A stretch of DNA of 15,312 nt, taken from Acanthamoeba castellanii str. Neff. Its lineage: Eukaryota > Discosea > Longamoebia > Acanthamoebidae. Made by a program: the position numbers and the translations under genes. The stretch spans positions 5,538-20,849 of the forward strand of contig NW_004457440.1 of assembly GCF_000313135.1 (NCBI RefSeq), in the 5' to 3' direction. Below the pieces are notes generated by a model. That model was not told the DNA's origin. It did no database searches and saw nothing but the letters and a program-made list of their open reading frames with translations. Below, piece by piece: positions 1,521 through 15,312 of this stretch; position 1 is the stretch's first letter; each line of letters begins with the position of its first letter.

Positions 1521-1901
1521 TCACGATGTTGCCGTGATTTTGTATCCCATATCCCATCCGGGCAGCGATTCGGCCGACGAGGGCACCAACGGCGACAAAT
1601 ACTTGACCCAACAGTTGGGTCCCGATCCGTTGCTCAGACGATCGTACAGCCACCCGTTGCATTCGCTGGTGGTATCGCACACGGACTGGCACTGCTGATC
1701 GCTGGTGACGTGCACGCCGCCCTGCACGAGATCGCACGATCCGCTCAGATTGCCGCATGGGATCTGCTGATCCTTCAATACGATGTATGTCGAGTTCTTC
1801 TTTTTAAAGTCGAGGTAGATGCCGATGAACACGGCGGCGATGACGACGATCATGCCCAGGCCGATCAGCGTGGCCATGCCGCGGCCTTCGGGTGTCGACA
1901 T
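1521..1901 (-). CDS. N-anchored membrane protein with PAN/Apple-like domain
   Basis: This is a 126-residue protein. I chose the ATG at 1899-1901 because it places a hydrophobic segment (about residues 9-30, GMATLIGLGMIVVIAAVFIG) right after a short polar N-terminus; an upstream in-frame ATG at 1982 would add 27 residues across the promoter-like region. After the membrane segment and a KKK stop-transfer cluster, the ectodomain has the cysteine and aromatic spacing of small PAN/Apple domains: C-x6-C, then C-x3-C-x6-C-NGWLYD, then NCWVKYL near the end. PAN domains bind protein or carbohydrate, so a virion-surface or adhesion role is possible, but that is inference. The coding DNA is CpG-rich and intact. 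The next gene downstream, the protease, starts 31 nt after this one ends on the same strand. Confidence 0.7.
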   Translation of the reverse strand: MSTPEGRGMATLIGLGMIVVIAAVFIGIYLDFKKKNSTYIVLKDQQIPCGNLSGSCDLVQGGVHVTSDQQCQSVCDTTSECNGWLYDRLSNGSGPNCWVKYLSPLVPSSAESLPGWDMGYKITATS

Positions 1902-1954
1902 TTGGGATCGGCATTGGCAAACAATCACGGGCGAACTGGACGCGCCAAAACACA

Positions 1955-1963
1955 AATATAAGG
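1955..1963. promoter_or_regulatory. Shared TATA-like element between divergent genes
   Basis: The plus strand reads AATATAAGG about 34 nt before the ATG at 1997; the minus strand reads CTTATATT about 55 nt before the ATG at 1901. A run of nine G residues (1962-1970) follows directly. It lies in the gap between two divergent genes and could serve both. Confidence 0.4.
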
Positions 1964-1996
1964 GGGGGGGCGTCGCTTGCATTTTGCGACAACACG

Positions 1997-2214
1997 ATGG
2001 ACACCGACGATTACCTCGATTACATCAGCAAGAGATCCGAGCACATGCTACTATGCGCTCAACGAGGAAGACAAGGAGGCCAATCGCGGCGGCTTCTGAG
2101 GGCCGGTTGGACATCACACCGTTCATCAAATGGCTCGTGGAGCTTGGATTCGATGCGCACCACCTCCAATCGGAGCATAAAAAGTCGTACGGATGGTTGA
2201 TTGAAACAAAATAG
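1997..2214 (+). pseudogene. Small unrecognised gene with two apparent +1 frameshifts
   Basis: Three short blocks in three successive plus frames look like one small protein of about 72 residues. The first begins at ATG 1997 (MDTDDYLDYISKRSEH), the second is near 2046-2095 (CYYALNEEDKEANRGG), and the third runs to the TAG at 2212-2214 (LDITPFIKWLVELGFDAHHL follows EGR). Each join needs one extra base, near 2045 and near 2095. A TATA-like box lies about 34 nt upstream, and the stop is one base from the stop of the convergent gene, a normal compact layout. The family is not recognised. The breaks may be real decay or single-base assembly errors; the sequence alone cannot decide. Confidence 0.45.
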
Positions 2215-2215
2215 C

Positions 2216-3391
2216 TCATTGATGTTGGGCGATTCTGCCGTTTGTCACGCGAGCCGGTGCCGTGCCGGGAAACACGGTGCCCATGGTCATGGATGCCAGC
2301 GCAATGAGCGCATTCTGAGGCACCACGTCGACCTTGAGGTTGACTGGCATGTTGCGCATGGACTTGTTGGTCATGCCGATTGCGGTGCATGCCAGCAGGC
2401 TGCTTAGGTTTGGTGATCCATAGACAGGCTGCATGTCGCTGGCGCAGGTCTGAATGCCATCCGAGTTTGGCGAGCACGTCGAGGCCACGTTGGAAAAGGT
2501 GCCGCAAGTGCCTGGAGCCAGATACACACCCGATCCGTCTGGGTAGCTGAGCGAAAAGTGGGGAGTCGTCGCGGCGGGCAGATTTTCGATGATCGCGCTG
2601 GCGTTGAGCGCGTAGGCGCCGTCGTTGGCCGACGATGCCACCCACCTGGCACTGACACTGCGCACCGCAAGCTTGGCGATGTTTGTCGATCCGGTGATGG
2701 TCGCGTTGTCACTGTACTCGTTCTTGGCGTAGAGATCGAGCTGGTATCGCCCGCTGACGATCGGCTGCGGCAGCCCGATCCTGGTGGCGGCGCTCTCGCT
2801 GTGGTACTGCTTGCCCGATGGATCGGTGATCGTGCTCACGTACGACACGGAGGCCATCGCGTCCTCGCTGGTGGGCACCGCGTCCCGCTCAAAGTAGTAG
2901 CCCGTGGTCGGGTGGCTGACGCTGCCGCCGGGTGGTACGTACCGGATGGCGTTGGCGGGGAAGGGTTGGGGCTTCAAGTCAAGCGTCCCATTGAATGTCG
3001 CCGACGGTCCCGTGCCAAACTGATTGCTGGCCGCGATGGTGATCGCGTAGGTGCCGTCCTTGAGCGGCGTCGGCAGGAAAGCCACGTTGCTGCCAACGGT
3101 GGCTTGGGGCGTCTTGTCGCCCGAAGGATCCGTGATGGAGTAGCTGTAGCTCATGGAGTATCCGGCGCCAGATCCGTTGGTCGGTGGATCCCAGGTGAAC
3201 ACGAATCCAGCGGTGTGCGGCTGCCCGTAGAACGCGCTGACGAAGGCGTCATGTGGCTCGAGGCGCACGTTGCGTACCGATCCGATCAGCGTGTCGGATT
3301 GTGATGACTTGCCATGGGTCCTCTTGTAGATCACCCACCCGATGACCGCAAACACGATAACGACAACGATGATGGCAACGGCACCCCACAT
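2216..3391 (-). CDS. N-anchored membrane protein with Ig/FN3-like beta modules
   Basis: This is an intact protein of about 391 residues if the start is ATG 3389-3391, or 397 from ATG 3409. I prefer 3391 because the TATA-like element at 3415-3423 would sit only 6 nt from the other ATG but 24 nt from this one. The N-terminus is a strong membrane segment (MWGAVAIIVVVIVFAVIGWV) followed by YKRTHGK. The rest is Ser/Thr/Gly-rich and beta-like, with an internal duplication: 'ITDPSG' then 'LPTPLKDGTYAITIAASNQF' in the first module, 'ITDPSG' then 'LPQPIVSGRYQLDLYAKNEY' in the second. The C-terminal third has four Cys between 'GTCGTF' and 'LLACTA'. The layout suggests an anchored surface or virion protein. 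The exact fold is not certain from sequence. A damaged paralogue lies directly upstream (3433-4083). Confidence 0.75.
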   Translation of the reverse strand: MWGAVAIIVVVIVFAVIGWVIYKRTHGKSSQSDTLIGSVRNVRLEPHDAFVSAFYGQPHTAGFVFTWDPPTNGSGAGYSMSYSYSITDPSGDKTPQATVGSNVAFLPTPLKDGTYAITIAASNQFGTGPSATFNGTLDLKPQPFPANAIRYVPPGGSVSHPTTGYYFERDAVPTSEDAMASVSYVSTITDPSGKQYHSESAATRIGLPQPIVSGRYQLDLYAKNEYSDNATITGSTNIAKLAVRSVSARWVASSANDGAYALNASAIIENLPAATTPHFSLSYPDGSGVYLAPGTCGTFSNVASTCSPNSDGIQTCASDMQPVYGSPNLSSLLACTAIGMTNKSMRNMPVNLKVDVVPQNALIALASMTMGTVFPGTAPARVTNGRIAQHQ

Positions 3392-3414
3392 GTTTGCTGA
3401 GTGGCACATCCGGG

Positions 3415-3423
3415 CATATATTT
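3415..3423 (-). promoter_or_regulatory. TATA-like box of the Ig/FN3-like gene
   Basis: The minus strand reads AAATATATG, 24-32 nt upstream of ATG 3391. It helps choose that start over ATG 3409. Confidence 0.4.
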
Positions 3424-3432
3424 GATTCGCCA

Positions 3433-4083
3433 TTACTGGCTCATGTGGATGTTGGACATGGATGCCGGGGTCGACGATCTGGGGAACTTTGACGCGACGG
3501 TGGCGGGCGTGGGCTGTGACGATCCGGCCATTGGAGAGAGCGCGCGGAAGACCAGATTGAGTGCCTTGCCGTGGGACGCGCGATTGGTGGTCGAACGCCA
3601 AGCAGGCGGGAACCTTGCTTGGATCGACACCGTAGGTGGGCGCAGTCGCGGCCACGCACCGACTGGTGCCGCTGCCCATGGAGGTGCACGTGGTGGAGAG
3701 GGGCAAGGCGCTGCATCCGCCCTGCATGATCACGGGGCTGCCGTCGGGATACTGCGGCTCGACGGTGATCCGATCGCCGCTCTCGTACCCAGTCACGTCA
3801 GCCGACAGCTGGAGCGTGTAGGCGCCGGGCGACTCGAGTTGGCCACCCAGTTGGCGCTGGTGCCGGTGATGCTGAACACCACCACCGCGCCCTGGCCGGT
3901 GGCGCTCGGACCCTGGCCGTACTTGTTGCTTGGGGTGATCTGGATGGCGTAGGTGCCGTTCATGGCGGGTTGCGGGATGGGCCACGCCGGACCCTGCGTC
4001 TGGCCCGTGGTGGACACACCCTTGGGATCGGTGAGCTTGACGGTGTAGCTGACCGGCGCATCCGAGTCGAGTCCGGCTTTTTG
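3433..4083 (-). pseudogene. Truncated, frameshifted paralogue of the neighbouring Ig/FN3-like membrane protein
   Basis: Three blocks in different minus frames align in order with the C-terminal half of the intact neighbour. Block 1 (about 4080-3838) has LTDPKG and then 'MNGTYAIQITPSNKYGQGPS', matching ITDPSG and 'KDGTYAITIAASNQFGTGPS'. Block 2 (about 3835-3585) has GAYTLQLSADV, a YPDGSP motif and the Cys pattern, matching GAYALNASAII and YPDGSG. Block 3 ends at the TGA at 3433-3435 with SMSNIHMSQ. The joins are frameshifts near 3838 and 3585. The N-terminal membrane segment and first module are missing; upstream of about 4080 the sequence becomes unrelated. CpG content is still high and no CGA-to-TGA stops were noticed, so this break differs in kind from the damage further right. 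Confidence 0.65.
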
Positions 4084-4219
4084 TGTTTGAGATGATAACG
4101 CTCGCTTTGCTCAATCAGCAGGAAGTGATCGGATGGTACACGGTACTCGATCTCGCACTGGGAGTCGCGCGATATCCAACGGCGGTCGACGAGACGCTCG
4201 CGGTGCATGCAGTCGAGCC

Positions 4220-4750
4220 CTAAGCCATCGTAGTACCCGAGCTTGACGGTGAACACGGATCTAGGCCTCGGATTCGGTCAGATGGGGGCGGCAGTGTCTC
4301 CTTGGGCATCTGCGAAACTTTACTGGCGCACGCCACGTTTTTCAAATCCTTGGGATGGATGAAGCCCGGATCAGGCCACGAGCCGTCGTCGATTTCTGAG
4401 ACAACATTGCGTTGCGTGGGCTTCGTTTCACGGTTGTTTTTTTTATGCCTGCTGGCGTGTTCTTTACAAAGGGACCAACATACCGGATTCGATACGCCCC
4501 GAATCCGATTGCCTGTAGTCTTACGATCTCGGCGAGGGATTAGTTATTGCCATCGCGTTCTGTAATCATCGGCACTCCACCCGTCGATGGTCGGGAAGGC
4601 ACGTGTGGTAAAATGCGTGCTGTAACCCGAAAAATGCCTCTTTTGTTTCAGCAAAGGGAGCTGACACAAACCAGGGCAGTATGTTTCCGGAAATTCGTAT
4701 TTCCTTTGGAATTTCAAAGAAACTGGGGAGCCCTTATAACACTGTAATTT
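4220..4750 (-). other. Unrecognised open frame with one TAA and C-x3-C/His clusters
   Basis: One minus-strand frame stays open from 4750 to a TAG at 4220-4222 except for a single TAA at 4544-4546. Before the TAA it reads protein-like, with YCPGLC followed by two His (HFSGYSTH) and an end in ADDYRTRWQ. After it comes NPVCWSLCKEHASRHKK, a second C-x3-C plus His cluster, then a Pro/Asp stretch (DDGSWPDPGFIHPKDLK). From about 4256 a different frame (VFTVKLGYYDG, then DCMHRERLVDRRWISRDSQC) looks like the continuation, which implies a frameshift. No convincing start codon was found. CpG is present at ordinary density. It may be a remnant of a zinc-binding protein, a mobile-element gene or a host exon. 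I do not recognise the family; it could also be chance. Confidence 0.3.
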
Positions 4751-4790
4751 TTATTTTTTTTATCAGTTCTTCCATTACCCAACGCGCACC

Positions 4791-4961
4791 ATGAACAGCA
4801 CCAAGAGGCACTATTCACAGAGGAGCATCAAGAAAGCCGCCAAGATTATTGGCCTGGCAGCACAGCAGCCCGAGCCAGTAAAGCAGGCAGTACAGCAAGC
4901 TGTCACTCAAGCTCTTGCTCATGTCATCTATGATGACGTCTTCAGTATGACATCAACTTGA
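4791..4961 (+). CDS. Small hypothetical protein, 56 aa
   Basis: The ATG at 4791 opens a 56-residue frame ending in TGA at 4959-4961. The N-terminus is basic (STKRHYSQRSIKKAAKII), the middle is Ala/Gln-rich and probably helical, and the end is HVIYDDVFSMTST. An AT-rich tract and TATAA (4735-4739) lie about 52 nt upstream. A short inverted repeat, ACTCAA-CC-TTGAGT (4982-4995), follows 20 nt after the stop. It lies at the boundary between CpG-normal and CpG-poor DNA and still has a few CpGs. The short length and lack of a family match keep confidence moderate. Confidence 0.42.
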   Translation: MNSTKRHYSQRSIKKAAKIIGLAAQQPEPVKQAVQQAVTQALAHVIYDDVFSMTST

Positions 4962-5147
4962 TCAAAGATTGAATGCCACCGACTCAACCTTGAGTTTTGA
5001 CATCCGCCTGTCAACCTTCCATCCCCCTCTACTGTCTTTTTATACACTTTTAATGGAAATGTTCCACCCCAAGCCCAGGATGCAACACACCAGATCATTG
5101 TACATATTCGCCATCGTGCGATGTGGATGTTGGGTGTGATGGCCTTA

Positions 5148-5774
5148 TTAAACAGCCAAGGAGAATTTTATTGATGTCTGTGGGTGGTAGCCCTCCAGCG
5201 TGAAATACTTGCTGCACACATCGTCCAGTGTTGGTTTGCGATTGATGATGAGTCGTGGGGGATTGGATGGTGTGTGTGAGATCTGCTCTTTCATTCTGTT
5301 GACGTGGTGTTTGTAGATGTGTGCGTCGCCCATTGTGAAGATGAGTGATCCCAGATTCTTGTCTGTGATCCATGTGATGAGGCACAGCAGCGTGGCAAAT
5401 GATGTGATGTTGAATGGCAATGTGAGTGCAACATTGATGCTGTGCATGTTGAGTAGCAGATTCATGGTCATGTGATTGGGGCTCATGTTGAACTGCATAA
5501 AGTTGTGGCAAGGCAGAAGTGCCATCTTGTTGAGATCCAACAAGTTCCATGCCAAGATGATGTTCCAGCGGCTGCCTGGATCCTCAATGATGAGCTGAAT
5601 TGCCTTGGCCATCTGATCAATGCTGTTTTCTTCACAGGTATGTCATGACTCAACCCCCAACATGGACAAGTGATATAGGAGCATGTCACTGTCACACTCA
5701 TGTTGTGCTGCCAGTTCAACATCTATTGGATGATGTGCGCCCCATTGCCTCCACTGATGGCTGTACAGTGCACA
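5148..5774 (-). pseudogene. thyA-like: Thymidylate synthase remnant (dUMP methylation), C-terminal about three quarters
   Basis: Read from 5774 down to the TAA at 5148-5150, the frame follows ThyA-type thymidylate synthase: YSHQWRQWGA (family YGxQWR), IDQMAKAI, DPGSRWNIILAWN, LLPCHNF with the catalytic Cys at 5508-5510, LPFNI, then MGDAHIYKHHVNRMKEQI and a C-terminus in EGYHPQTSIKFSLAV. The enzyme makes dTMP from dUMP. Two in-frame TGAs break it (5643-5645; 5775-5777 just before the motif block). Key residues are lost in the CpG-decay pattern: SRR reads SRW, LPPCH reads LLPCH, and the phosphate-binding RS-x-D motif reads HSIN. About 30 extra residues separate QWR and IDQ compared with E. coli. 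The N-terminal 70-80 residues are absent or hidden under the divergent kinase gene, whose first codons overlap this one. Inactive. Confidence 0.88.
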
Positions 5775-8488
5775 TCAGCGGTCAAGCCCACCAGTGCCAC
5801 TGCAAGCACCAATGGCAATTTGGAGCTGCATCTTGGGCTTGGTCTTGGCATTGGCCTTGGCATTGGCGTCATCTTGCTCCTACTCTTCACATTTGTCTGT
5901 GTTCTGGCTGCACTCAGCGTGGGCATCATGCAGCACAAGCATGAGTGACCCACATGGGACACATTGATATCTGACATCAAGTTTGGCAATCTGATCAGCA
6001 CCAGCAGCAACAGCAACATCCACAAGGCCAAGTGGCGCAGCACTGAAGTCGCCATCAAGATGTTCACCACCCACCACACCCATTTCTCCTGCAACAAGCT
6101 GCATAAACTGCGTGGAGAGGTTGACATCATGAACTCCATGCGCCATCCAAATGTGATCACGTTCTACGCCACATGCACCAAGCCTCTGGATCTGTGCATC
6201 ATCATGGAGCACATGGAGCTGGGCTTGCTGTTAGATCTCCTCAAGAACAAGCTCATGGAGTACCTGCCACTGGCACTTCACATCAAGCTTGCACTCAGGA
6301 TCACCAAGGGCATGCACTACATCCACTCACAGGGCATCGTCCACCGCAATCTCAAGTCGCCCAATGTGCTCATTGACTCCAAGTGGAACGCCAAGGTCGC
6401 TGACTTTGGTCTCAGCACAGCGCAACGCGCCATGGGGAACGAACAGGCGGGCCTCAGCATCCCCTGGGCGGCGCCCGAGATCCTCAGCGATTCAACCATG
6501 GCTGATGGCGTGTTGGCCAACATCTACTTGTTTGGTATCATATTGTGGGAGATCATCACATGCAAGAAGCTGTCATCTGTGACCAGAAGTGACCTGTGTT
6601 TGTTGATGATGTGGTGCCCTTGCTGTATCTCAACGCCCAGGACCTTGTTTATGAGAAGGAGATTGCTGAGATGCAAGATCTCATGTGTTGCTGTTGGGCC
6701 CAGGATGTTGTTGAATGACTGACGCTGCTGGAGATCATCAATGCCCTCAACATCATTGTGGGTGTGTGTGCCCCCAAGAAGTGCATTGACGACTCAGGCG
6801 ACAACTCTGGCAGCATGATGTGTGGATTGTTGTCCAGATCCAACGTGTTGTCCATGTGATCCATCTATGGCAACGTCCAGCTGACTGCCCATGGGTATGG
6901 CATGACCCAACCACCACTGCACAATGGTGATGTCTACATCATCATCAGTGACATCTCCACAGCCAATCAGCTGTGGGAGCTCAACCACTCAGCAGCATGC
7001 AAGGCCACCATGATCCACAATGCACTCATGTGCAATCTCATGATGACCCACAATGGCTATGAGGTGCACATGTCTGGCCTCAAGGCAAGCATGGGCACTG
7101 GCACCTTCTGCATCACCTTCCACCAGGCCATTGACACTGTGGCCTGGTGCTCCAGCACACAGCACACCCTTGTCATCACCAACTGGCCTGCAGGGTTGCT
7201 GTGCATCAACAGCACACACACCAAGTATGGCAACTTGTCCAACAAACACTTTGTCTACCACGGACTGCGTGTGTGCATGGGCGTGCACATTGGCCTGGTG
7301 TGTCACATCATGGACCCCAAGACACACCACATCAAGTACATTGGTCCAGCGGTGAAGGGAGCCATGGCCATTGCACATGTGTCATCAGGCAGTCAGGTGC
7401 TCATGTCACCCAACGTCAAGGCCGAGCTCACTGACCTGCCCAATGAGATTGGGTGGATGTGTCCCCTTTGGATCCAACACATGGGCAATGTTGATCTCAA
7501 GCAAGCGGCGCCCAAGGGGATCCCCTACCAGCTGATCATGAACTCACTTGAGATGCACGCCAAGAATCATGTGTGGTTCAATGAAGACGATGACAGTGAT
7601 GACTGTGATGTGCTCCAGCTGCCCGCTGAGGACATGAGCCTGCTGGTGTCAGCCAACAAGTGCCAGTGGTTTATTGACCTGTGTGAGATTGAGACTGGCA
7701 AGGTGATTGGCTGTGGGATGAGCGCCATCATCTACAGGGGCCTGTGGAGCAAGTGGACACTGGTTGCTGTCAAGATCTTCAACCAGTTGAAAATGACTGA
7801 GGAGCAGACGCTCTGATTCTGTGTTGAGGTGGCCACTCTCACTGAGCTCTCACAGCCCAATGTCCTGCTCTTCATCAGCACCACCATTGGCGACAAGCAC
7901 CTCTTGCTTGTCACTGAGTTCGTGCCCTGTGGCAGCCTCGCCAGTGTGCTTGCCAACACCTCCAAGTACCCACTCATGTTCACCCAGCACATGCACATGG
8001 CCTATGGCACTGCACATGGCATGCACTACCTCCACTCACTTGATCTGCTGCTGCTCCACTGTGATCTCAAGTTGTTGAACCTGCTTGTGGATGACTGCCT
8101 CACTGTCAAGGTGGCTGACTTTGGCTTTGTGTGCATCAAGGAGAACAATGCCACCATGACCAACTGTGGCATGCCCACGTGGAGTGCGCCTGAGGTGATC
8201 CAGGGCCTTGACTATGGCATGTGGGCCAACATCTATTTGTTTGGTGTCATCCTGTGGGAGATTCTCATGTGCAAGGTGCTGTACACCAATGAGCTGTTCA
8301 TGTGTGTGGTCATGTCCATCATTGAAGGCAAGCACCCACACATCATGTTGGATTGTCCTGAAGCACTGCACTGACTCATCAAGTGATGTTGGCACACCAA
8401 GCCGGCCAAGAGGCCCTCCATGGAGAGTGTGTGTGAGCAACTGGTGGACATCATTGGTGCATGTGGTGATGCCATACTTGATGTGTAA
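5757..8488 (+). pseudogene. Decayed membrane-anchored Ser/Thr kinase - class III nucleotide cyclase - kinase protein
   Basis: One long gene of about 910 codons, broken by seven in-frame TGAs (5946, 6590, 6716, 6857, 7814, 8372, 8384) and one frameshift between about 6570 and 6590. Order: a membrane segment (about 5813-5925, LGIGLGIGVILLLLFTFVCV); kinase 1 (VAIK Lys at 6057, HRN at 6342-6350, ADFGLS, WAAPEI, NIYLFG at 6519); a cyclase domain (about 6905-7430, VYIIISDISTANQLWEL to GLRVCMGVHIG and YIGPAVKGAMAIAH); kinase 2 (VAVKIF, HCDLKLLN at 8057, ADFGF, WSAPEV, NIYLFG) to TAA 8486-8488. This matches receptor kinase-cyclase proteins abundant in Acanthamoeba and present in its large viruses; there the ectodomain is large, here almost nothing precedes the membrane segment. 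Catalytic Asp of kinase 1 is Asn, and the second metal Asp of the cyclase is not visible, so it is inactive. The start is uncertain (ATG 5757 or 5700). Confidence 0.88.
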
Positions 8489-8745
8489 AACTTGTCATCA
8501 CCAACAGCAACAATGTCTTTGCTTTTTTTGGCACACTTTCTGGCAATGTGAACGATGGACAGGCCCTTGGACAGTTTCAGATCATCACAACGCCACAAGT
8601 CATAAAGATTGAAAAGGATCATCAGTTCGTCCTGTTTGAGGATCTGGAACAAAAACAAGATCTGCGTGAAATGCAGCAATCAGCACACTGGCATCTACTA
8701 TTACATTATCAAAGCTTCATTTGGTCCCTCCAATTGAGAATAAAC
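8489..8745 (+). other. Probable gene remnant of uncertain strand
   Basis: Several frames look partly coding. On the plus strand one frame has NNVFAFFGTLSGN then QIITTPQVIKIEKDHQFVLF, and another ends in CSNQHTGIYYYIIKASFGPS before a TGA, with AATAAA at 8739-8744 just after; a frameshift between them would make one small protein. On the minus strand (8680-8480) a frame reads QILFLFQILKQDELMILFNL then LYDLWRC, which resembles the helix spacing of an F-box. I favour the plus strand because of the AATAAA, but cannot settle it. Confidence 0.3.
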
Positions 8746-8804
8746 ATTAAACAACAGCAAGGATCCAATGCACTTTTCCTTAATCATTCAGGGTGGTGGG
8801 TGTG

Positions 8805-8810
8805 TTTATT
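8805..8810 (-). terminator. AATAAA signal downstream of the 8832-9364 gene
   Basis: The minus strand reads AATAAA 22 nt beyond the TGA at 8832, the expected place for a 3'-end signal. It supports that TGA as the true end of the gene. Confidence 0.4.
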
Positions 8811-8831
8811 GATCAAACAAAGTCCTTTGCC

Positions 8832-9364
8832 TCAGATCCTTGATGGATTTGATCTGGATCTGGAGTGCTGCCTTACTACAGCATCATCAACATCCCTCTT
8901 CAGATCCTCTTCAATATCATGCAATTTTATGGCATACCCCTCATAGATCACATGTTTCTCCTTGGCACAATTGACAGCCTCACCTTTGCACTGCTCAGTT
9001 GATTCAATTCTCTTCACCTTGTCATGTGAGATGATACAGGTCATGTAGACATGCAAGTGCAACTCTCTTCAACACACACAGGCCAAACACAGTCCAGATA
9101 GTCCCAACCATCAAGGTATTTGATCAGCACAGGCACATACTCACCCAAACATCCCAGCTGTGCAATGGCCAGTCAGAACTCATTCACAATGTCATCATGA
9201 TCACAGATCATTTCAAACACAATCAGACACTCACCAGCTGTAGGTTTCCCTCCATCAACAAATCTGGGCAGTTTGCTGATTAAGTCATACTCAACAAGTG
9301 CATTGGTTACAGATCACACAGTGACAATACTGCCCAGAGCACATTTACATGGGTTGCTCTGCAT
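8832..9364 (-). pseudogene. Unrecognised protein gene with two TGA stops and a frameshift
   Basis: From ATG 9362-9364 (MQSNPCKCALGSIVTV) one frame runs to about 9070, interrupted by TGA at 9314-9316 and 9173-9175. It includes ALVEYDLISKLPRFVDGGKP and VPVLIKYLDGWDYLDCVWPV. Near 9065 the reading shifts frame and continues as HVYMTCIISHDKVKRIEST and KLHDIEEDLKRDVDDAVV to the TGA at 8832. The total is about 177 codons, mixed hydrophobic and charged, with no membrane segment or motif I can name. Both internal TGAs are consistent with former CGA (Arg). A TATA-like box on the minus strand (9401-9409) and the downstream AATAAA frame the gene. No CpG remains in it. Confidence 0.62.
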
Positions 9365-9381
9365 GGTGTTGGTGGTACTAT

Positions 9382-9400
9382 GGCAACAACCATGGTTGCC
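9382..9400. repeat. Inverted repeat GGCAAC...GTTGCC in the divergent promoter region
   Basis: GGCAAC (9382-9387) and GTTGCC (9395-9400) are perfect inverted arms around AACCATG, itself part of the palindrome AACCATGGTT. It sits 18 nt upstream of the ATG at 9364 and next to its TATA-like box, so it may be a leader hairpin or a protein-binding site. Confidence 0.35.
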
Positions 9401-9409
9401 TCTATAAGG
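9401..9409 (-). promoter_or_regulatory. TATA-like box for the 8832-9364 gene
   Basis: The minus strand reads CCTTATAGA about 37 nt upstream of ATG 9364. Confidence 0.35.
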
Positions 9410-9422
9410 TCTGACATGGCCA

Positions 9423-9436
9423 ATGTGAGCTCACAT
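9423..9436. repeat. Perfect 14-bp palindrome in a divergent intergenic region
   Basis: ATGTGAGCTCACAT is its own reverse complement. It lies between the divergent starts at 9364 and 9542, about 59 and 105 nt from each, where a dimeric DNA-binding protein could act on both. It contains no CpG, so it could persist despite the decay of the region. Confidence 0.4.
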
Positions 9437-9482
9437 GGACACCAGTTTGATTACACAGCCAATCACAGATCTGTTTGGCACC

Positions 9483-9490
9483 ATAAATAG
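9483..9490 (+). promoter_or_regulatory. TATA-like box of the secreted-protein gene
   Basis: ATAAATAG, 52 nt upstream of ATG 9542. The same octamer occurs on the minus strand at 13871-13878 before another gene start. Confidence 0.45.
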
Positions 9491-9541
9491 TCCAAATTTG
9501 GGCCTTGTGTCACTCTCCGCACCTCACTGCCACCAAGAGAC

Positions 9542-10066
9542 ATGCACACCCTCACTGTTCTGCTTTTGCTGGCCATGCTTGCCACCCTTGCCACCAGCCA
9601 GGGCTCGCCACTCTACTTTGGCACCACCATGTTCACCTTCCACACAGCCAGCTCACCCCTGGCCAACTGCATCCACGACACATCGGCGACTGCCAGCCCC
9701 CTCAAGTGCAACATCAGCAACTCAGACCTCACCTTGTGGACCCTCACTGGCCCCACTGTCACCCCTGGCGATGAGGCCCTCAGCCCCACCACGCCCGCCA
9801 TGCTCAACCCCTATGGAAGTGGATCATTGACCCAGTGGTGCATCCCCAAGAACTCAACCAGCTATTTGGACCAGAACACTGTTTTGTGCAACAGTGTGCC
9901 CATCCTTGGCTGGTTGATGTTCATCAAGACCTCAGGCTACTATGGCAATGGCATCTTCAGCAGTGACCAGTTCGCCATCCTCAATGTGTGCAATGGCAAG
10001 TTTTGCACCATGGGTGGTGTTGGCATGATCAGCTGCAACACTGAAGACATTGCCTTTGCCACCTGA
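9542..10066 (+). CDS. Secreted protein with signal peptide, 174 aa
   Basis: ATG 9542 starts a clear signal peptide (MHTLTVLLLLAMLATLATS, probable cleavage before QGSPLYF). The mature part is Ser/Thr/Asn-rich with about nine Cys (for example NCIHDTS, LKCNISNS, VLCNSVP, NVCNGKFCTM, ISCNTED) and several N-x-S/T sites, which fits an extracellular or lumenal disulphide-bonded protein. No known domain is recognised. No internal stop is present. The terminal TGA (10064-10066) could be a former CGA, since the frame continues six codons to a TAA at 10085, but a hairpin starts exactly at this TGA, so I take it as the end. It is expressed divergently from the 8832-9364 gene. Confidence 0.72.
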   Translation: MHTLTVLLLLAMLATLATSQGSPLYFGTTMFTFHTASSPLANCIHDTSATASPLKCNISNSDLTLWTLTGPTVTPGDEALSPTTPAMLNPYGSGSLTQWCIPKNSTSYLDQNTVLCNSVPILGWLMFIKTSGYYGNGIFSSDQFAILNVCNGKFCTMGGVGMISCNTEDIAFAT

Positions 10067-10092
10067 TACACTATCATGTTTGCATAAATAAA
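10064..10092 (+). terminator. 3'-end hairpin and AATAAA of the secreted-protein gene
   Basis: TGATA-CAC-TATCA (10064-10076) starts at the stop codon and forms a short perfect stem. AATAAA follows at 10087-10092. Short hairpins at gene ends are known transcription-end signals in several giant viruses; the stem here is only 5 bp. Confidence 0.35.
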
Positions 10093-10164
10093 ACCCATGC
10101 TTCCACAAACCTTCAGACGCCACTCTTTGTTCCATATGAACAAAAACAATAACCACAAGCCACC

Positions 10165-10734
10165 ATGAACACAAATGCAGAGGTCACACTGCTGTACATT
10201 TTGTCAATCATCAGGATTGTGGCGTTCCACACCCTGGCACCTCAGCTTTGGCCCACTGAGCACACAGGCAACTATGCGTTTGTGGCGCTAGCATATGCCA
10301 CCTGCATCCTGCAAGCCATCCATGAACACAAGACTGAGTCCAATGGCAATCTTCTGTGCTGGCTCACCTCCAACGTCATTGCTGCCATCACAGCCACCCA
10401 TACAGCTATCTTCTTTGCCATGGCATGGAACGCCCACACCATGGAGATCATGCTTGCTGGAGTGGGTGTGTTTATCCTCATGGTTGTGTTCCTTGAGTGT
10501 GAATGTGTGGAGTGTGATGATGATGATGACGACAGATCCAATGAAGAAGAATCTGAAGAGGAATTGTGATCACCAAGTGATGAGGAGGAACCTGACAACA
10601 GCACTGATGATGAGGAGCAACATGAGATCACATCCACTGATCGACCCAACCATCACATCTACTTTGAGGATTCAAGTGAGGAGGAAAAGGAAGAGGATGA
10701 TGATGAGGAGGCATTTGTGGCGATCTGCGAATGA
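10165..10734 (+). pseudogene. Four-helix membrane protein with long acidic tail, split by one TGA
   Basis: ATG 10165 opens a 134-codon frame to TGA 10567-10569; the same frame then stays open to TGA 10732-10734, giving 189 codons if the first TGA is a former CGA. Four hydrophobic segments are visible: about residues 8-27 (VTLLYILSIIRIVAF), 36-54 (YAFVALAYATCILQ), 66-92 (LLCWLTSNVIAAITATHTAI) and 94-112 (IMLAGVGVFILMVVF). The tail is strongly acidic, with a run of Asp codons, then DRSNEEESEEEL before the TGA and SPSDEEEPDNSTDDEE after it, ending in EEAFVAICE. Continuity of the acidic tail across the TGA is the main evidence that it is a nonsense mutation. Acidic cytosolic tails often bind basic proteins; the function is unknown. 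Confidence 0.65.
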
Positions 10735-10753
10735 TGCATGGGGCTGGATCTGT

Positions 10754-10761
10754 GTATATTT
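10754..10761 (+). promoter_or_regulatory. TATA-like box of the tail-fibre-like gene
   Basis: TATATTTT, 29 nt upstream of ATG 10790. Confidence 0.4.
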
Positions 10762-10789
10762 TTCCAATGTGTTTGGGTGAGAGCCTTTA

Positions 10790-11908
10790 ATGAGCAACAA
10801 CAATCACATTTACAGCCTGGTGACACCTGTGCTTGGTTTGGTGTTCCTCCCTGATGTGACTGCTCTGACTGGTGTGAGTGCCGTGCAGGTGGATCACTCC
10901 ACCCTGCTCAACAAAGGCATCAATACACACATGCAAATAGATGTGTTTGTCACGTCCAAGGGTCAACCCAACAGGCTCATGGTGCTTGATGGCACTGGAA
11001 ACATCCCTGGTTCTCAGCTTGGCAACGCCTATGCGCCACTGGTGACCAAGGGCGCCCTCATCATGGGCAACAGCACCACCTTGACCATTCTCCCACTGGG
11101 CACCATGAACCAGCTGCTCACCGCTGACACCAATGCCACAAATGGCATCAAGTGGGCGCAGGGCGACCACACCACTCTGAACAATGTTGGCACCAACACC
11201 CACGCACAGATTGACACCTTCATTGGATCCAAGGGCGCAGCATCTGGACTTGCATTGCTTGATGCGTTGAGCTTTGTGCTGGTGGTGCAGTTGGGCAATA
11301 TGGGCAGCACCATGCCTGTCGCCATGCTGCTCACCATTGTGTGCCCATGGACTGAGGCCAGATGGGCTGGTGATCTCAATGTGCTCAAGACCACTGGTAC
11401 ACTTGTGCCCATGTACTTGGGTGCAATCAATGGTGGCGCCAACAACACCTACTTTGTCAACCTCACTGACCACACCCAGCAGCCCCATGCCATTGAGATC
11501 ATGCTCAAGAACACATGCACTGTGTTGCTCATTGTTGACCCTGGCAACAGCGCACAGCTGCTGCTCAACGGAGGCTACTACTTGGAGCTGGGTACACACA
11601 CCTTCATGGTCCTGGCGCTGGCCTTCATGCTGTGCAGCATCACCATGGGCACCTACATGGACAAGTGGAGTGGTGGCAACAGCATCACCTATGTGGAGGC
11701 CACCAGTGCCCTGTGCATGTACATTGGCGTTGGGTGCCCTGGAGGCCCCATGGCTTACCCGCCAGGCAGTCCTTTCAGCATCAGGTACATGCTCACTGGA
11801 AGCCCCTATCTGGACAACACTGTTGATGTGCAAGTGCAGGGATGGACCACCAGAAAACGTGGCATGTCATGTAAGGCAGGACATGGCGCCATATATATTC
11901 TTCATTAA
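10790..11908 (+). CDS. Tail-fibre/adhesin-like structural protein, 372 aa
   Basis: An intact frame from ATG 10790 to TAA 11906-11908. Two copies of a repeat typical of phage and giant-virus fibre proteins are visible: residues about 34-58 (VDHSTLLNKGINTHMQIDVF) and 125-149 (GDHTTLNNVGTNTHAQIDTF). Between them lies the module 'KGALIMGNSTTLTILPLGTM' followed by LLTADTNATNGIKWAQ, also common in phage structural proteins. The C-terminal half is Gly/Asn/Thr-rich beta-type sequence (NLTDHTQQPHAIEIML, DPGNSAQLLLNGGYY) like a trimeric fibre tip. Likely role: virion surface or host attachment, inferred from the repeats. Some repeat positions show CpG-type change (the expected THAQID reads THMQID in copy 1, and A-to-M is not a single CpG step, so ordinary divergence also contributes). 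The last codons overlap a TATA-like element of the next ORF. Confidence 0.75.
   Translation: MSNNNHIYSLVTPVLGLVFLPDVTALTGVSAVQVDHSTLLNKGINTHMQIDVFVTSKGQPNRLMVLDGTGNIPGSQLGNAYAPLVTKGALIMGNSTTLTILPLGTMNQLLTADTNATNGIKWAQGDHTTLNNVGTNTHAQIDTFIGSKGAASGLALLDALSFVLVVQLGNMGSTMPVAMLLTIVCPWTEARWAGDLNVLKTTGTLVPMYLGAINGGANNTYFVNLTDHTQQPHAIEIMLKNTCTVLLIVDPGNSAQLLLNGGYYLELGTHTFMVLALAFMLCSITMGTYMDKWSGGNSITYVEATSALCMYIGVGCPGGPMAYPPGSPFSIRYMLTGSPYLDNTVDVQVQGWTTRKRGMSCKAGHGAIYILH
11891..11899 (+). promoter_or_regulatory. TATA-like box inside the 3' end of the tail-fibre-like gene
   Basis: ATATATATT lies in the last codons of the upstream gene and 27 nt before ATG 11926. Confidence 0.35.
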
Positions 11909-11925
11909 ACACCAGCACCAGCACC

Positions 11926-12096
11926 ATGCAGACGACCACCAACACCAACAAGTGCCAGCACGCTGGGATCAGTGGAGCCCCTGAGACCTCTCTGGTACCT
12001 GTTGTGCACAAAGTTGAGCAATGCTGCATCTGGATTGTGAAATCCTGCCACTGGTGTTTGGCAACCAATGAGCACCATGATGTGTCACCACCATGA
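11926..12096 (+). CDS. Small Cys/His-rich hypothetical protein, 56 aa
   Basis: ATG 11926 in an ACC-ATG context opens 56 codons to TGA 12094-12096. The sequence has KCQHAGIS, VEQCCIWIVKSCHWC and NEHHD, so Cys/His pairs that could bind metal. The frame continues after the TGA for 13 codons to TAA 12136-12138, so the TGA may be a former CGA. A TATA-like box is well placed upstream. The opposite strand has a longer frame with a hydrophobic stretch (11793-12119), but with less gene-like context. Low to moderate confidence. Confidence 0.35.
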   Translation: MQTTTNTNKCQHAGISGAPETSLVPVVHKVEQCCIWIVKSCHWCLATNEHHDVSPP

Positions 12097-12163
12097 TGGT
12101 TGTTGCCAGGGACAAACATAGAAAGAACAGGATGTTAATGAACACTGAGGTTGGGGATATTTT

Positions 12164-12799
12164 TTATTGGCGTTGAAGTCTCACAAGCACCACCACCACA
12201 ACCATGAATCCAACACAGGCCAAGAGGAGGATGGTGGCCACTGGTATGGCCACACCCACTGCAATTTCCACAACGTGGTTGTCACCCATGGGCCTTGGCC
12301 ATGAAGATGGTGTGGAAGGGGGCATGCTTGATGGTGTCACCAATGGCGTGCTTGATGGGGTGTTTGTGAAAGAGGGTGTGCTTGACAGTGTGGAAGTGAT
12401 GGATGGGGTGGGCAAGTTGTAAATGTCCACCATGCTGACTGGCCCCCTGGTGCCACCAGCAAAGAGGGCCAGGTTGCTGATGGAAGTGGCTGCCAGTAAG
12501 TAATGGGCCTGGGAGAGTGTGGTGGTGGTCCATGTGTTGGATGACGCATTGTAGATGTCCACCATGCCAGAGTTCCCCCCCAAAGAGAAGCTGCCAGCAA
12601 AGAGGGCCAGGTTGCCAATGGAAGTGGCCACCAGTCAGCCACAGGCCTGGGAGAGTGCAGCAGTGGTCCACATGTTGGACAATGCATTGAAGATGTCCAC
12701 CATGCCAGAGAACCCCCCTGTAGCCCAGCTGCCAGTGAAGAGGGCCAGGTCACCAACGGAAGTGGCTGCCAGGTGATATTGAATCATGCAGTTTGGCAT
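12164..12799 (-). pseudogene. Kelch-repeat protein with Ser/Thr/Pro stalk and C-terminal membrane anchor, broken by one TGA
   Basis: The frame from ATG 12797-12799 to TAA 12164-12166 has one TGA (12635-12637). Three kelch-type blades follow each other: AATSVGDLALFTG...SGMVDIFNALSNMWTT, VATSIGNLALFAG...SGMVDIYNASSNTWTT, AATSISNLALFAGG...SMVDIYN. A Ser/Thr/Pro stalk of about 40 residues follows, then a membrane helix (EIAVGVAIPVATILLLACVG and beyond) and a short basic tail RLQRQ. Comparing blades shows CpG-type changes: NASSNTW against NALSNMW (TCG to TTG, ACG to ATG), SIGN against SISN (GGC to AGC after C), SQAR expected where SQAC and SQAH are found. Kelch blades normally number five to seven, so the N-terminal blades are missing; the start abuts or overlaps the end of the 12784-13336 gene. 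Probably a surface protein in origin. Confidence 0.75.
12423..12780. repeat. Tandem coding repeats of 132 and 138 bp (kelch blades)
   Basis: The 12-mer ATGTCCACCATG recurs at 12423, 12555 and 12693, giving periods of 132 and 138 bp (44 and 46 codons). 'AGAGGGCCAGGT' recurs with the same phase. These are the DNA image of the kelch blades on the minus strand. Confidence 0.7.
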
Positions 12800-13336
12800 C
12801 CACACAATGTGATGGTGCCACCCATGAAACAGACCTTGACCTTTTCAACCCTGTCATGTGTGCAGAGTGTGAGCTGGTTGGGCAAGGAGGTGGCGAGGGG
12901 CGTCTGTGGCAGAATGATGTGTGCTGCATGTTGCATGGGGCGATTGAAGTTTTCACATGTAGATGCACTGTGAGGAGAGTGTGCTGGTGTCTGATGACGC
13001 CATGAGAGCCTCTGATTTGGCGGTGAAGGTAGTGTTGTCTATCCTGAGATCAAAGTACAAACAATGTCCACAGAGGTTGCTCATCATGATGCCCATGTGC
13101 CCATGGTTTGGTGACCACATGTTACAGCACATGAGCACAAGGCCAGCTCTGTAGGTGCTGTCCTCATCACACCCAACTGGCAACCAATCAGACAGCAACC
13201 CAAAGCCAGTGGGCAGAGGGTGGACGTTGTTGTCATCAATGATGTGTTTTCAGTAGCGCCATTCCTCCTTTTTCATCAAGGCCAGCAACCACAATGGGCA
13301 AACAAACAGTGGAGTAGACACGCAGTGAGAACTCAT
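12784..13336 (-). pseudogene. Unrecognised protein gene with TGA and frameshift
   Basis: ATG 13334-13336 starts a frame (MSSHCVSTPLFVCPLWLLAL, then KKEEWRY) broken by TGA 13250-13252. It goes on as HPLPTGFGLLSDWLPVG and MWSPNHGHMGIMMSNLCGHC to TGA 12953-12955. Shifted by one base near 12960, reading continues as TCENFNRPMQHAAHIILP and LTLCTHDRVEKVKVCFMGG to TGA 12784-12786. The total is about 184 codons. Either the protein ended at 12953 and a second small gene follows, or a frameshift joins the two; the smooth join favours one gene. Cys is frequent, probably in part from Arg codons. A TATA-like AAAATACAAAGG lies 33-44 nt upstream (13369-13380). Family not recognised. Confidence 0.58.
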
Positions 13337-13368
13337 CTTGGTCGTTTTTTGTATGTGTTTGGATTTCC

Positions 13369-13380
13369 CTTTGTATTTTA
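13369..13380 (-). promoter_or_regulatory. TATA-like AT-rich box for the 12784-13336 gene
   Basis: The minus strand reads TAAAATACAAAG 33-44 nt before ATG 13336. Confidence 0.3.
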
Positions 13381-13402
13381 AGCAAGTGCCATGTGAATTC
13401 AC

Positions 13403-13852
13403 TCAAAATCCATTGGAAACTGCCAAACCCATCATTGTGAATGTGTGAGCAAAGTGCAGGATGTTGATGTCCTCATAGTTGTAGGGTTTGCTGTTGAGAT
13501 TGCAGAGTTGCTCACATCAGGTGGGTGCACCAAGCATGATGGAGATTGGGTCACACATGTCAACAGTGCCAGTGAGATGTTTCCACATCCAATTTGTGCC
13601 ATCCTTGGTCAGCAAATCCACAATCCAGTCATGATGCACAATGAGCATCCTTGCATTCCTGCACATCCCAATCAACACCACAATCACAGCACCAAGTGCA
13701 AGACAGGATGTCAAACACTGCAATCCCAAGATGAGACCACATGCAGTCATAACCACAGCTGAATCAGCAGCCACACACATGGCCATGTTGACACCAGCAA
13801 TCAGGTGTGGCCATGTGTCAAAGACAATGAAGTTTTGCATGTTGTTGGTCAC
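13403..13852 (-). pseudogene. Multi-pass membrane protein with one in-frame TGA
   Basis: ATG 13850-13852 opens a frame (MTNNMQNFIVFDTWPHLIAG) of 111 codons to TGA 13517-13519, and the same frame continues as CEQLCNLNSKPYNYEDINIL to TGA 13403-13405, 149 codons in total. Two or three hydrophobic segments occupy about residues 16-62 (including AVVMTACGLILGLQCLTSCL and GAVIVVLIGMC). The post-TGA part looks like normal coding sequence, so the internal TGA is probably a former CGA. The upstream TATA-like ATAAATAG (13871-13878) overlaps the stop of the preceding gene. A 10-bp palindrome GTGAATTCAC (13393-13402) sits directly after the final stop and may help end transcription. Function unknown. Confidence 0.6.
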
Positions 13853-13870
13853 ATGGCTTGTTTCAGCATC

Positions 13871-13878
13871 CTATTTAT
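13871..13878 (-). promoter_or_regulatory. TATA-like box of the 13403-13852 gene
   Basis: The minus strand reads ATAAATAG, 19-26 nt before ATG 13852, overlapping the TAA (13875-13877) of the upstream gene. Same octamer as at 9483. Confidence 0.42.
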
Positions 13879-14372
13879 TGGTTTGCAGTTCCAAATGCAC
13901 TCACAACAAGATCTTTGATGAACTGGGCTATGCCAGGTGAGGTGCACTCAGGCAGTCCTGAAAACATGATGTTTTGGTAGCCCATGCTATAGACCATGAT
14001 GTGCAGAAGATCTGCCAGGATGATCACTTTTTTGGGATTGAGATCCCACACAACAATGATGTCACCACACAATCCAGAGACACACATGTGCATCATGCCA
14101 TACAAGGGTGAGTTGCACTCCTTGGGCAAGCAGTCACCACAAGCATAGGCAATCATCACACAAGTGCAGATTCCACTTGATGGTTTGACAAGAAAGGCCA
14201 CCACAAGATCAGACATGTCAACATTCTCAATGTCACAGTCAGTGCAGCATTTGTCACCAGCACAAATGGACATGCATCCAGCAGTGGCAATTTCAAGCCT
14301 CATGGCACCACACAGGGCGCCCTGGTTGGTCCCATTCTGTCTGCCTGAAACAATAGTGATGTTGGTATGCAT
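13875..14372 (-). CDS. Cysteine-rich hypothetical protein, 165 aa
   Basis: ATG 14370-14372 (MHTNITIVSGRQNGTNQGAL) gives 165 residues to TAA 13875-13877; a GTG at 14405 would add 11 residues, but the TATA-like box at 14408-14415 argues for the ATG. About 14 Cys are present, many in pairs (SICAGDKCCTDCD, GICTC, YACGDCLPKEC). The second half has hydrophobic strands such as CGDIIVVWDLNPKKVIILAD and ends AFGTANQ. No membrane helix is obvious and no known domain is recognised. Some Cys may descend from Arg codons (CGC/CGT to TGC/TGT), so the Cys count may exaggerate the original. No internal stop. It is divergent from the DUF4326 gene, sharing a 61-bp gap. Confidence 0.65.
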   Translation of the reverse strand: MHTNITIVSGRQNGTNQGALCGAMRLEIATAGCMSICAGDKCCTDCDIENVDMSDLVVAFLVKPSSGICTCVMIAYACGDCLPKECNSPLYGMMHMCVSGLCGDIIVVWDLNPKKVIILADLLHIMVYSMGYQNIMFSGLPECTSPGIAQFIKDLVVSAFGTANQ

Positions 14373-14407
14373 GGTTGGTATGGATTGAACAGTGTGGCTT
14401 GTCACCC

Positions 14408-14415
14408 CCTTTTAT
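14408..14415 (-). promoter_or_regulatory. TATA-like box of the Cys-rich gene
   Basis: The minus strand reads ATAAAAGG, 36 nt before ATG 14372, in the short divergent gap with the DUF4326 gene. Confidence 0.42.
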
Positions 14416-14433
14416 TCTTCACCCCAGTTGCCA

Positions 14434-15195
14434 ATGAACACAAAGTGCAAGTGTGAGAACAAGGCAGTGCCAATGGCCAAAAAGCCATGCCCTTCTGACA
14501 GATTGGAAGTGGTGAGGATCACCCATGCAAACAAACACAAGGTGGTCTACATCAGGCATGAGTGGAAGAAGGGTGGGTATGACCTTGAGGAGAGCAAGTG
14601 GGCCAACCCCTACTTCCTCAAGAAGGGTGCAATGCCCAAGGAGCACAAGGAGTGCCTTGACAAGTACCACAGGCATATCATGTGTGACAAGTATCTCTAT
14701 CACGCCCTGCCTGAGTTGTGTGGCAAGATGGTTGGATGCTGGTGCAAGCTGCTGTTGTGTCATGGTGATGTGCTGGCTGAACTGCTCTGTGATTACAAGC
14801 CACTGACACCCAAGAAGCCGTGGCATTGCATCCTTGAAAATGGTTGTGTGCTTGTGGTGTTTGATGTGGATTGTGTTGTCATCAGCAATGAAGATGACTG
14901 CTGCTGTGGCAGCACTGAACTTGAAATTGACAATCTGTGTGAGGAGGATGTGAAGCATGTTGATGACCAAGTGTGCAGCCTCATTGGTGGCTTATTTGAG
15001 CATCTCAACCCCACATTGCTCACAGAGCCCTACTCCTATTCCACTAGCTTGGAGTGTGACATCCCCCAAGAGGGCAACTCAATCAAAGAGCTCATCAACA
15101 TGGTGCACTACATGTCCCAAGACAAGGGGTGGCAGTCAGATCTGCCACAACACAGCAATTGTATCAAAGTGCACACCAAGGCTGAAAGGCTATAA
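14434..15195 (+). CDS. DUF4326-domain protein, 253 aa
   Basis: I chose ATG 14434 (CCA-ATG) over the in-frame ATG 14392 because the latter lies inside the divergent promoter. Residues about 25-120 carry the DUF4326 pattern: VVRITHANKHKVVYIRHEW, then ESKWANPYFLKKG, a YHRHI stretch and the signature LCGKMVGCWCKLLLCHGDVL (C102, W103, C104, C109, H110, D112). The family usually has GCWC-x-P-x-P-CHGD; here both Pro are Leu, as CCG-to-CTG would give. Its function is not established in the literature I know. The C-terminal 130 residues are acidic and Cys-containing (DEDD-like patches such as SNEDDCCCG and CEEDVKHVDDQ) without a known domain. No internal stop. TAA 15193-15195 is followed by an overlapping AATAAA (15194-15199) and a hairpin. 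Confidence 0.8.
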   Translation: MNTKCKCENKAVPMAKKPCPSDRLEVVRITHANKHKVVYIRHEWKKGGYDLEESKWANPYFLKKGAMPKEHKECLDKYHRHIMCDKYLYHALPELCGKMVGCWCKLLLCHGDVLAELLCDYKPLTPKKPWHCILENGCVLVVFDVDCVVISNEDDCCCGSTELEIDNLCEEDVKHVDDQVCSLIGGLFEHLNPTLLTEPYSYSTSLECDIPQEGNSIKELINMVHYMSQDKGWQSDLPQHSNCIKVHTKAERL

Positions 15196-15205
15196 TAAAG
15201 TAGAG

Positions 15206-15225
15206 TTTCTGTCTAGAAACAGAAA
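15206..15225. terminator. 7-bp hairpin after the DUF4326 gene
   Basis: TTTCTGT (15206-15212) and ACAGAAA (15219-15225) are perfect arms around CTAGAA, 10 nt after the stop. Palindromic 3'-end signals of this kind are known from several giant viruses. A minus-strand frame entering from the right also ends here (TAG at 15213-15215), so it may serve convergent genes. Confidence 0.5.
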
Positions 15226-15312
15226 TGTCCTTTATCACAAGGAGCACAGCACTTGTGTGTACAATGCTGACTTCTTGTGGAGAAGTGGTGCCTGATGGTG
15301 TGACCATCAGGT
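15213..15312 (-). CDS. Possible C-terminus of a Cys/His-rich protein entering from the right edge
   Basis: A minus frame open from the right edge reads RHHFSTRSQHCTHKCCAPCD then KGHFCF to TAG 15213-15215, inside the hairpin loop. The C/H density (CTHKCCAPC, HFC) resembles a metal-binding tail. It is only 32 codons, and another minus frame is also open here, so this is weak. Confidence 0.22.
   Translation of the reverse strand, partial: PDGHTIRHHFSTRSQHCTHKCCAPCDKGHFCF
15291..15311. repeat. Perfect 9-bp inverted repeat at the right edge
   Basis: CCTGATGGT (15291-15299) and ACCATCAGG (15303-15311) flank GTG. It is the strongest short hairpin seen in the window and could be a second 3'-end signal or a protein-binding site. 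The window ends one base later, so its context is unknown. Confidence 0.55.

Follow-up and report, generated by a model that had tools for sequence, protein, structure and literature searches.

Decay of CpG, apparently in strand-coordinated tracts, in a giant-virus-bearing island of the Acanthamoeba castellanii Neff genome

The CpG methylation and silencing of the giant viral islands of Acanthamoeba castellanii str. Neff are already published, and the present work concerns the loss of CpG from what would be part of such an island, in a window of 15,312 bases. According to the text available of Sarre et al, 2025 (PMC12344493), 5-methylcytosine (5mC) in Neff is confined to CpG, DNMT1 and DNMT3 are present, a Pithovirus-like DNMT is unexpressed and hypermethylated regions are enriched for H3K9 methylation. 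The viral regions are hypermethylated and silent, and island copies are 85–95% identical to one another, a range set there beside the 85% identity between strains Neff and C3 (Blais et al, 2025, PMC12210455, available text). Neither CpG decay of the islands, its rate nor strand tracts are described in the text available of these two papers; the string 'deamin' occurs once in PMC12344493, in its reference list, and is absent from PMC12210455, PMC11244446 and PMC12455990. Such decay or tracts were not found in the literature searched, with subscription papers and some preprints falling outside it.

The window is the right part of a 20,849-base contig (C126:5538–20849) of the Neff assembly (38.4 Mb, 250 contigs), and all coordinates below are in window numbering unless a contig prefix is given. 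Its right block holds host-type kinases, giant-virus genes and repeats present elsewhere in the genome; ACA1_020520 is a protein encoded inside the window. Partial copies of parts of the window lie on contigs C190, C207 and C124, with differing order and orientation. The original prediction, made from the letters of the DNA, held that proteins encoded in 4962–15312 had decayed by change of CpG to TpG or CpA, the mark of 5mC deamination, in methylated, non-selected viral DNA within a eukaryotic genome. The features on which the comparison of copies rests are the following.

1–4650, no strand assigned: CpG-rich neighbour block, used as an internal control; duplicated on C124, with CpG kept in both at 328 of 389 classed sites.
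4700–15312, no strand assigned: CpG-depleted island, reaching the contig end; edge at 4651–4800.
5763–8791, plus strand: stretch common to the window and the decayed C190 copy; 6960–7986 and 8146–8647 are also common to the C207 copy.
9029–10004, plus strand: second stretch common to C190, 90.4% identical.
11792–12772, minus strand: third stretch common to C190, 88.8% identical, including Kelch repeats (Kelch_4, E 4.3e-6 in 12164–12631).
12778–12949, plus strand: genomic repeat, CpG-rich on C143 and C59 and decayed in the window.
12954–13371, minus strand: two segments (12954–13035 and 13230–13371), CpG-rich on C124 and decayed in the window, each on one strand.

Loss of CpG and its direction

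The window falls into two parts of very different composition. In 1–4962 the observed/expected (o/e) ratios of CpG, TG and CA are 1.15, 1.20 and 1.18, while in 4963–15312 they are 0.19, 1.97 and 1.89. CpG density drops from 106.7 per kb (1–4600) to 12.3 per kb (4701–15312) across a sharp edge at about 4.65–4.8 kb, so that the predicted depletion is confirmed but begins slightly to the left of where it had been placed. TA has an o/e of 0.29 and few CA/TA differences separate the copies, indicating no excess of CpA-to-TpA change. Among loci chosen by similarity search, and so a non-random sample, the host kinases (L017–L038) have a CpG o/e of 0.98–1.25, and further depleted stretches occur on C190, C207, C17, C143, C68, C218, C184 and C94.

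The counts between copies are given below. Ratios compare CpG change with other transitions (95% confidence interval in brackets) under a decay model that makes loss of a CpG equally probable on the two strands, applied to the alignable stretches.

Window and C190 (4,961 sites from four alignments, each more than 84% identical): CG in both 23; CG against TG or CA 111; TG against CA 176; 37 other transitions and 62 transversions at the 4,341 remaining sites; CpG-type substitutions 463 of 562 (82%); ratio 238 (182–338); identity outside CpG 97.8%.
Window and C207 (1,455 sites): CG in both 6; CG against TG or CA 41; TG against CA 71; 13 other transitions and 12 transversions at 1,219 remaining sites; CpG-type 183 of 208 (88%); ratio 194 (104–438); identity outside CpG 98.0%.
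C190 and C207 (2,053 sites): CG in both 3; CG against TG or CA 49; TG against CA 89; 30 other transitions and 38 transversions at 1,771 remaining sites; CpG-type 227 of 295 (77%); ratio 125 (84–202); identity outside CpG 96.2%.
Control, left block and C124 (3,473 sites): CG in both 328; CG against TG or CA 61; TG against CA 0; 22 more CpGs changed in other ways; 40 other transitions and 60 transversions at 2,695 remaining sites.

The substitutions are thus far from evenly spread over dinucleotide contexts, and the predicted pattern is borne out. A site that reads TG in one copy and CA in the other records two hits on one CpG, on opposite strands, once the copies had separated; the 176, 71 and 89 such sites therefore indicate that each copy decayed largely independently and that most of the decay followed copying. 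Modelled CpG loss per copy is 0.86–0.88 in the three pairs, and the modelled change of C or G to T or A, about 8% of window bases in the aligned part, comes near the drop in G+C from 60% to 50%. The overall identity of 85–91% between the window and C190 hides 98% identity outside CpG, which would make the copies younger than they look.

Relatives elsewhere in the genome give the direction of the change. Against the repeat on C143, 15 of 19 CpGs have become TG or CA in the window, and the same holds for 15 of 20 against the C59 copy and 15 of 20 against C124, the last with two other changes in 180 sites. Against the C17 kinase the figure is 30 of 41, with 10 changed otherwise and one kept. The segment 5217–5397 has lost 15 of 22 CpGs relative to C190:101736–101915, while 4297–4613, left of the edge, has lost 3 of 25 relative to C190. 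An island on C218 has lost 26 of the 36 CpGs of its C189 relative, and the sole CpG left in C218 is TG or CA in C189; between C184 and C9, both depleted, the loss runs in the reverse direction, with all three CpGs lost in C9.

The free virus points the same way. The gene at 10790–11908 is of giant-virus origin, its product sharing 70% identity with a protein of Medusavirus stheno T3. At 63 residues the window departs from a state shared by two Medusavirus proteins; CpG decay alone accounts for 27 of these, as compared with a mean of 9.1 and a maximum of 16 in 500 residue shuffles, so that at these 27 the free-virus relatives do not share the window's residues. Against each Medusavirus protein singly, 38 of 107 and 43 of 130 differences fit CpG decay. 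Taken together, the placement on a Neff contig that carries host-type kinases and genomic repeats beside viral genes, the Medusavirus-like gene, the one-way loss and the free-virus residues at many changed sites support the proposal of viral DNA that decays by CpG loss in a eukaryotic genome and is probably methylated there, and the published CpG methylation of this organism agrees with it. Part of the stretch (kinases, repeats) is host-type, and CpG decay leaves 36 of the 63 residue differences unexplained. That the CpG decay occurred in place, inside the amoeba genome, is highly likely.

Retention of CpG also varies with context and position. Between the window and its relative on C190 (L066), 38–39% of CpGs are kept with G before or C after, and 12–13% with C before or G after. 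In the C207 copy (L067), the equivalent of 6960–7986 contains a block of retained CpGs although the rest of this copy is decayed, as though one tract had been spared or exchanged.

Strand tracts and the process behind them

Overall the two strands are hit about equally (105 plus of 240 in the window), yet neighbouring losses tend to lie on the same strand. At 170 opposite-strand sites between the window and C190, in three alignments, neighbours share orientation in 109 cases against 85.4 expected (P = 0.0002); in 6200–6449, for example, all 13 losses of the window are minus and all 13 of C190 are plus. Pairs of opposite-sign sites within 200 bp agree at 0.615 for window and C190, 0.653 for window and C207 and 0.762 for C190 and C207, each with P of about 2e-4, the floor of the 5,000 trials. 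When strict flanks are demanded the like neighbours number 55 of 84, 19 of 28 and 24 of 35 in the three copy pairs (P = 0.004, 0.042 and 0.019). A two-state model gives mean tracts of 160 bp in the window and 320 bp in C190 and C207, and the tracts are not the same from copy to copy.

Comparison with the CpG-rich C124 copy displays two such tracts directly, since 12954–13035 has lost 9 of 11 CpGs, all nine on one strand, and 13230–13371 has lost 6 of 9, all six on the other. The CpG-rich control block lacks coordination (like neighbours 19 of 40 and 5 of 17). In a three-way stretch of 115 sites neighbours agree for the window (P = 0.011) and for C207 (P = 0.003). Codons, context and gene direction are common to both copies and so give equal odds at opposite-strand sites; they cannot yield coordination, and gene direction and sequence context were rejected as sources of the strand bias on the ground that a shared cause would give random signs there. 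With good confidence we regard the strand-coordinated tracts as real. They are not predicted by deamination that strikes sites one at a time and independently, which is therefore not the whole story.

The explanation that we favour, with moderate confidence, is deamination of 5mC in a silenced island, proceeding tract-wise during exposure of single strands. The island DNA, with its Medusavirus-like genes, host-type kinases and repeats, would originally have been about as CpG-rich as the adjoining left block. After partial copies reached other contigs, CpG would have changed to TpG or CpA largely independently in each, the remaining sequence changing by just 2–4% or so meanwhile. Since methylation in Neff is confined to CpG and its silent viral regions are heavily methylated, deamination of 5mC is the chemistry to be expected, and 5mC was very probably the substrate, as the published methylation of such islands suggests; the reaction would likely have taken place in silenced chromatin, at CpGs that carried methylation. 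One-strand tracts a few hundred bases long point either to single-strand exposure of the DNA or to a processive enzyme. The weak flanking-base preference and the failure of duplication alone to trigger decay tilt us somewhat towards exposure over a dedicated enzyme; most of the deamination would then probably have occurred while one strand was single-stranded, with R-loops, resected ends and recombination intermediates as candidate sources.

Several observations weigh against this explanation. 5mC at this contig is presumed from published data for such islands. From the control, about 100 further shared TG or CA sites are estimated that may predate copying, and the rate ratios depend on how well a simple two-strand model holds and come from the stretches that could be aligned; the 23 CpGs retained in both window and C190 exceed the few that are modelled, so that rates must vary along the sequence. 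As for the tracts, C190 has no extra neighbour agreement in the three-way stretch (P = 0.69) and an overall bias there (74 plus, 28 minus), and its signs in the pair with C207 give P = 0.16. For losses confined to the window, agreement with opposite-sign sites nearby holds in 227 of 413 pairs (0.55), and for those confined to C190 in 199 of 313 (0.64); signs are mixed in the comparisons with the C143 repeat and the C17 kinase. The strand test was conceived post hoc, strict filtering weakens its signal, and the three copy pairs share sequences and are therefore not independent.

An alternative is a dedicated process resembling repeat-induced point mutation (RIP), in which an amoeba enzyme would deaminate methylated or otherwise targeted CpGs processively along one strand as a defence. 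This would account for the tracts, the very high ratio to other changes, the confinement to CpG and the sharp island edges, and a CpG-biased, RIP-like mutation is described for basidiomycetes in the text available of PMC4014442. Long duplicated stretches that the left block shares with C124, at 92.6% and 94.4% identity, have however been spared, so that duplication alone is no trigger. Flanking-base preference is weak as well: with sites of the three pairs pooled, the base 5′ of the cytosine at decayed and spared sites, respectively, is A at 55 and 35, T at 23 and 33, C at 16 and 26 and G at 71 and 71. A search for APOBEC_N, made without a positive control, gave no match, and DNMT4/RID is described as restricted to fungi (PMC12344493, available text). 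We consider this process unlikely, and equally doubtful the corollary that Acanthamoeba possesses a RIP-like defence outside fungi, CpG-specific, strand-processive and addressed by the methylation of integrated giant-virus DNA. Classical RIP was rejected, there being no CpA-to-TpA change and the duplicated CpG-rich DNA being spared.

Spontaneous 5mC deamination, site by site on double-stranded DNA with a low background of other mutation and poor repair of T:G pairs, would explain why the changes are limited to CpG and strike the strands about equally overall. The published 5mC of the host is consistent with it, as is the finding of one UDG-family match only, near a contig end. It is nevertheless improbable, as neighbouring losses share a strand far beyond chance in three copy pairs and the use of opposite-strand sites excludes causes common to both copies. 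Ultraviolet damage, which needs a pyrimidine 5′ of the cytosine, was set aside, as decayed cytosines follow a pyrimidine less often (39 of 165) than spared ones do (59 of 165).

That the donor virus was already poor in CpG, or that selection on proteins or codons had lowered it, is scarcely credible. Some viral contigs that hold a partial relative of the Medusavirus-like protein are indeed CpG-poor, down to an o/e of 0.15, but the 17 viral contigs compared are mostly weak partial matches and span 0.15 to 1.27. The free-virus residues require CpG loss, and the reading was rejected because recent copies have lost the same CpG on opposite strands and repeats that are CpG-rich elsewhere have decayed in the window. 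Methylated sites can mislead nanopore base calling, but a sequencing or assembly artefact has next to no chance of being the explanation, as one CpG has different states in different copies. The text available of PMC4053784 gives Illumina, 454 and Sanger reads for the 2013 assembly, on which ground methylation-linked sequencing error was rejected.

Genes of the window and the predicted residue changes

The genes and domains recognised in the window are as follows.

3–1502, minus strand: Rho_N-domain protein, in the left block.
5148–5612, minus strand: thymidylate synthase, C-terminal part, decayed (Pfam PF00303, E 1.2e-39, profile positions 113–266 of 266).
5949–6719, plus strand: kinase 1 segment with a TGA end (PF07714, E 2.1e-40).
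7817–8371, plus strand: kinase 2 segment with a TGA end (PF00069, E 2.6e-28).
9542–10066, plus strand: open reading frame (ORF) with a weak DUF5888 match (E 1.3e-4; 22 bits, below the curated cut-off of 33.5).
10790–11908, plus strand: Medusavirus-like protein, its identity to Medusavirus stheno T3 extending over 90%.
14392–15195, plus strand: DUF4326 protein, an open frame nearly without CpG (PF14216, E 1.3e-12).

Residue changes had been predicted at motifs of these proteins and most fit CpG loss. In kinase 1 the changes of HRD to HRN and of D to N, in both kinases that of S to L, and in kinase 2 those of HRD to HCD, D to N, V to I, R to C and T to M each have at least one in-genome relative with a CpG at the site, although HCD is native to one of the eight host kinases compared. 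The change of V to I in kinase 1 is ambiguous, as I is likewise found in C190 and in two host kinases (C122, C202), and that of A to V in kinase 2 fits one of three relatives compared, the other two being without CpG at that codon. In the thymidylate synthase the proposed losses of R (SRW, HS) agree with two related proteins that carry SRR and QRS, while LPCH cannot be counted as a decayed PPCH because both proteins natively have LPCH. For DUF4326 an ancestral P-x-P-CHGD had been assumed; the C172 relative has P-x-S in place of P-x-P, but even so CpG loss fits each of the two changes to L.

The two kinase segments sit in broken frames, and the five frame-bounding stops examined in this region are all TGA. 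On the coding strand CpG decay can create a stop only from CGA, so the long open frames in the island are no proof of selection. A pocket of 15 retained CpGs, seven of them common to C190, occupies 6338–6509 in the catalytic part of kinase 1, and 6304–6417 is 80–86% identical to many CpG-rich host kinases; conversion from host genes is therefore possible, as is a protected pocket. No relative of kinase 1, the DUF4326 protein or the Rho_N protein was found in the viral contigs searched with them, and the Medusavirus-like protein had no matching solved structure.

Also in the left block are an ORF with a PAN domain and a long one of no significant family. The C-terminal part of the Rho_N protein, as judged by eye from its sequence, may resemble a cysteine protease, and the protein has three relatives (43–48% identity) in sequence collections. 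The block is itself mosaic: within 3600–4613, at about 4074, the best match switches from C124 (97%) to C190:100010–100543 (87%), and the CpG edge lies past this switch. Within the island, 13036–13229 comprises about 194 bases whose two flanking segments directly adjoin in the C124 copy. A palindromic element of about 244 bases (L047, C184:149–392) has many partial matches in the genome, three checked copies being without CpG in their aligned parts.

As to genes for cytosine chemistry, a C5-methyltransferase gene is present at C215:64255–65683, and a DNA_methylase fragment match (L063, C94:879310–882486) borders a stretch depleted of CpG and might be the Pithovirus-like DNMT reported for Neff. 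The single UDG-family match, with three candidates scored, is at C124:12459–12935 and has one internal TGA.

Significance and relation to known systems

Together these observations suggest that a fast process, acting tract by tract, erodes silenced viral DNA, and that ordinary ageing is not the sole cause. If this is true, methylation in Acanthamoeba silences captured viruses and accompanies their fast destruction, which would help to explain why viral insertions persist for a short time, and the dating of islands would change. A sudden shift in G+C need not signal a different donor, and in amoeba genomes the loss of CpG would leave a trace of probable past methylation that can be read from sequence alone. 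The strand tracts, of which the literature searched yielded no description, make a concrete and testable claim about the mutation process.

The published methylated islands of Neff are the closest system, sharing with the window the strain, Medusavirus-type genes, partial copies 85–95% identical, abrupt shifts in G+C, host elements within and broken genes, as far as their available description goes. What the window adds is that 77–88% of the substitutions between its copies are of CpG type, with 96–98% identity outside CpG, and that CpG loss can explain most of the drop in G+C. The depletion of CpG in vertebrates likewise changes CpG to TpG and CpA on both strands of methylated DNA; in mammals CpG change exceeds other transitions about tenfold, and the ratio in the window is far higher. 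The loss in Neff is moreover limited to islands in an otherwise CpG-rich genome, and shows strand tracts.

RIP, including its basidiomycete CpG form (PMC4014442, available text), similarly converts C to T over repeated or silenced DNA, with protein decay and TGA stops, but the window has no CpA-to-TpA excess and its duplicated CpG-rich DNA is spared. Strand-coordinated clusters such as those of AID/APOBEC-type hypermutation are present in the window. Clustered mutation in single-stranded DNA, as the available text of PMC3521656 and PMC6786661 describes it, is tied to long single-stranded tracts and is strand-coordinated like the losses seen here, whereas in the window the changes are limited to CpG and have accumulated within a viral island.

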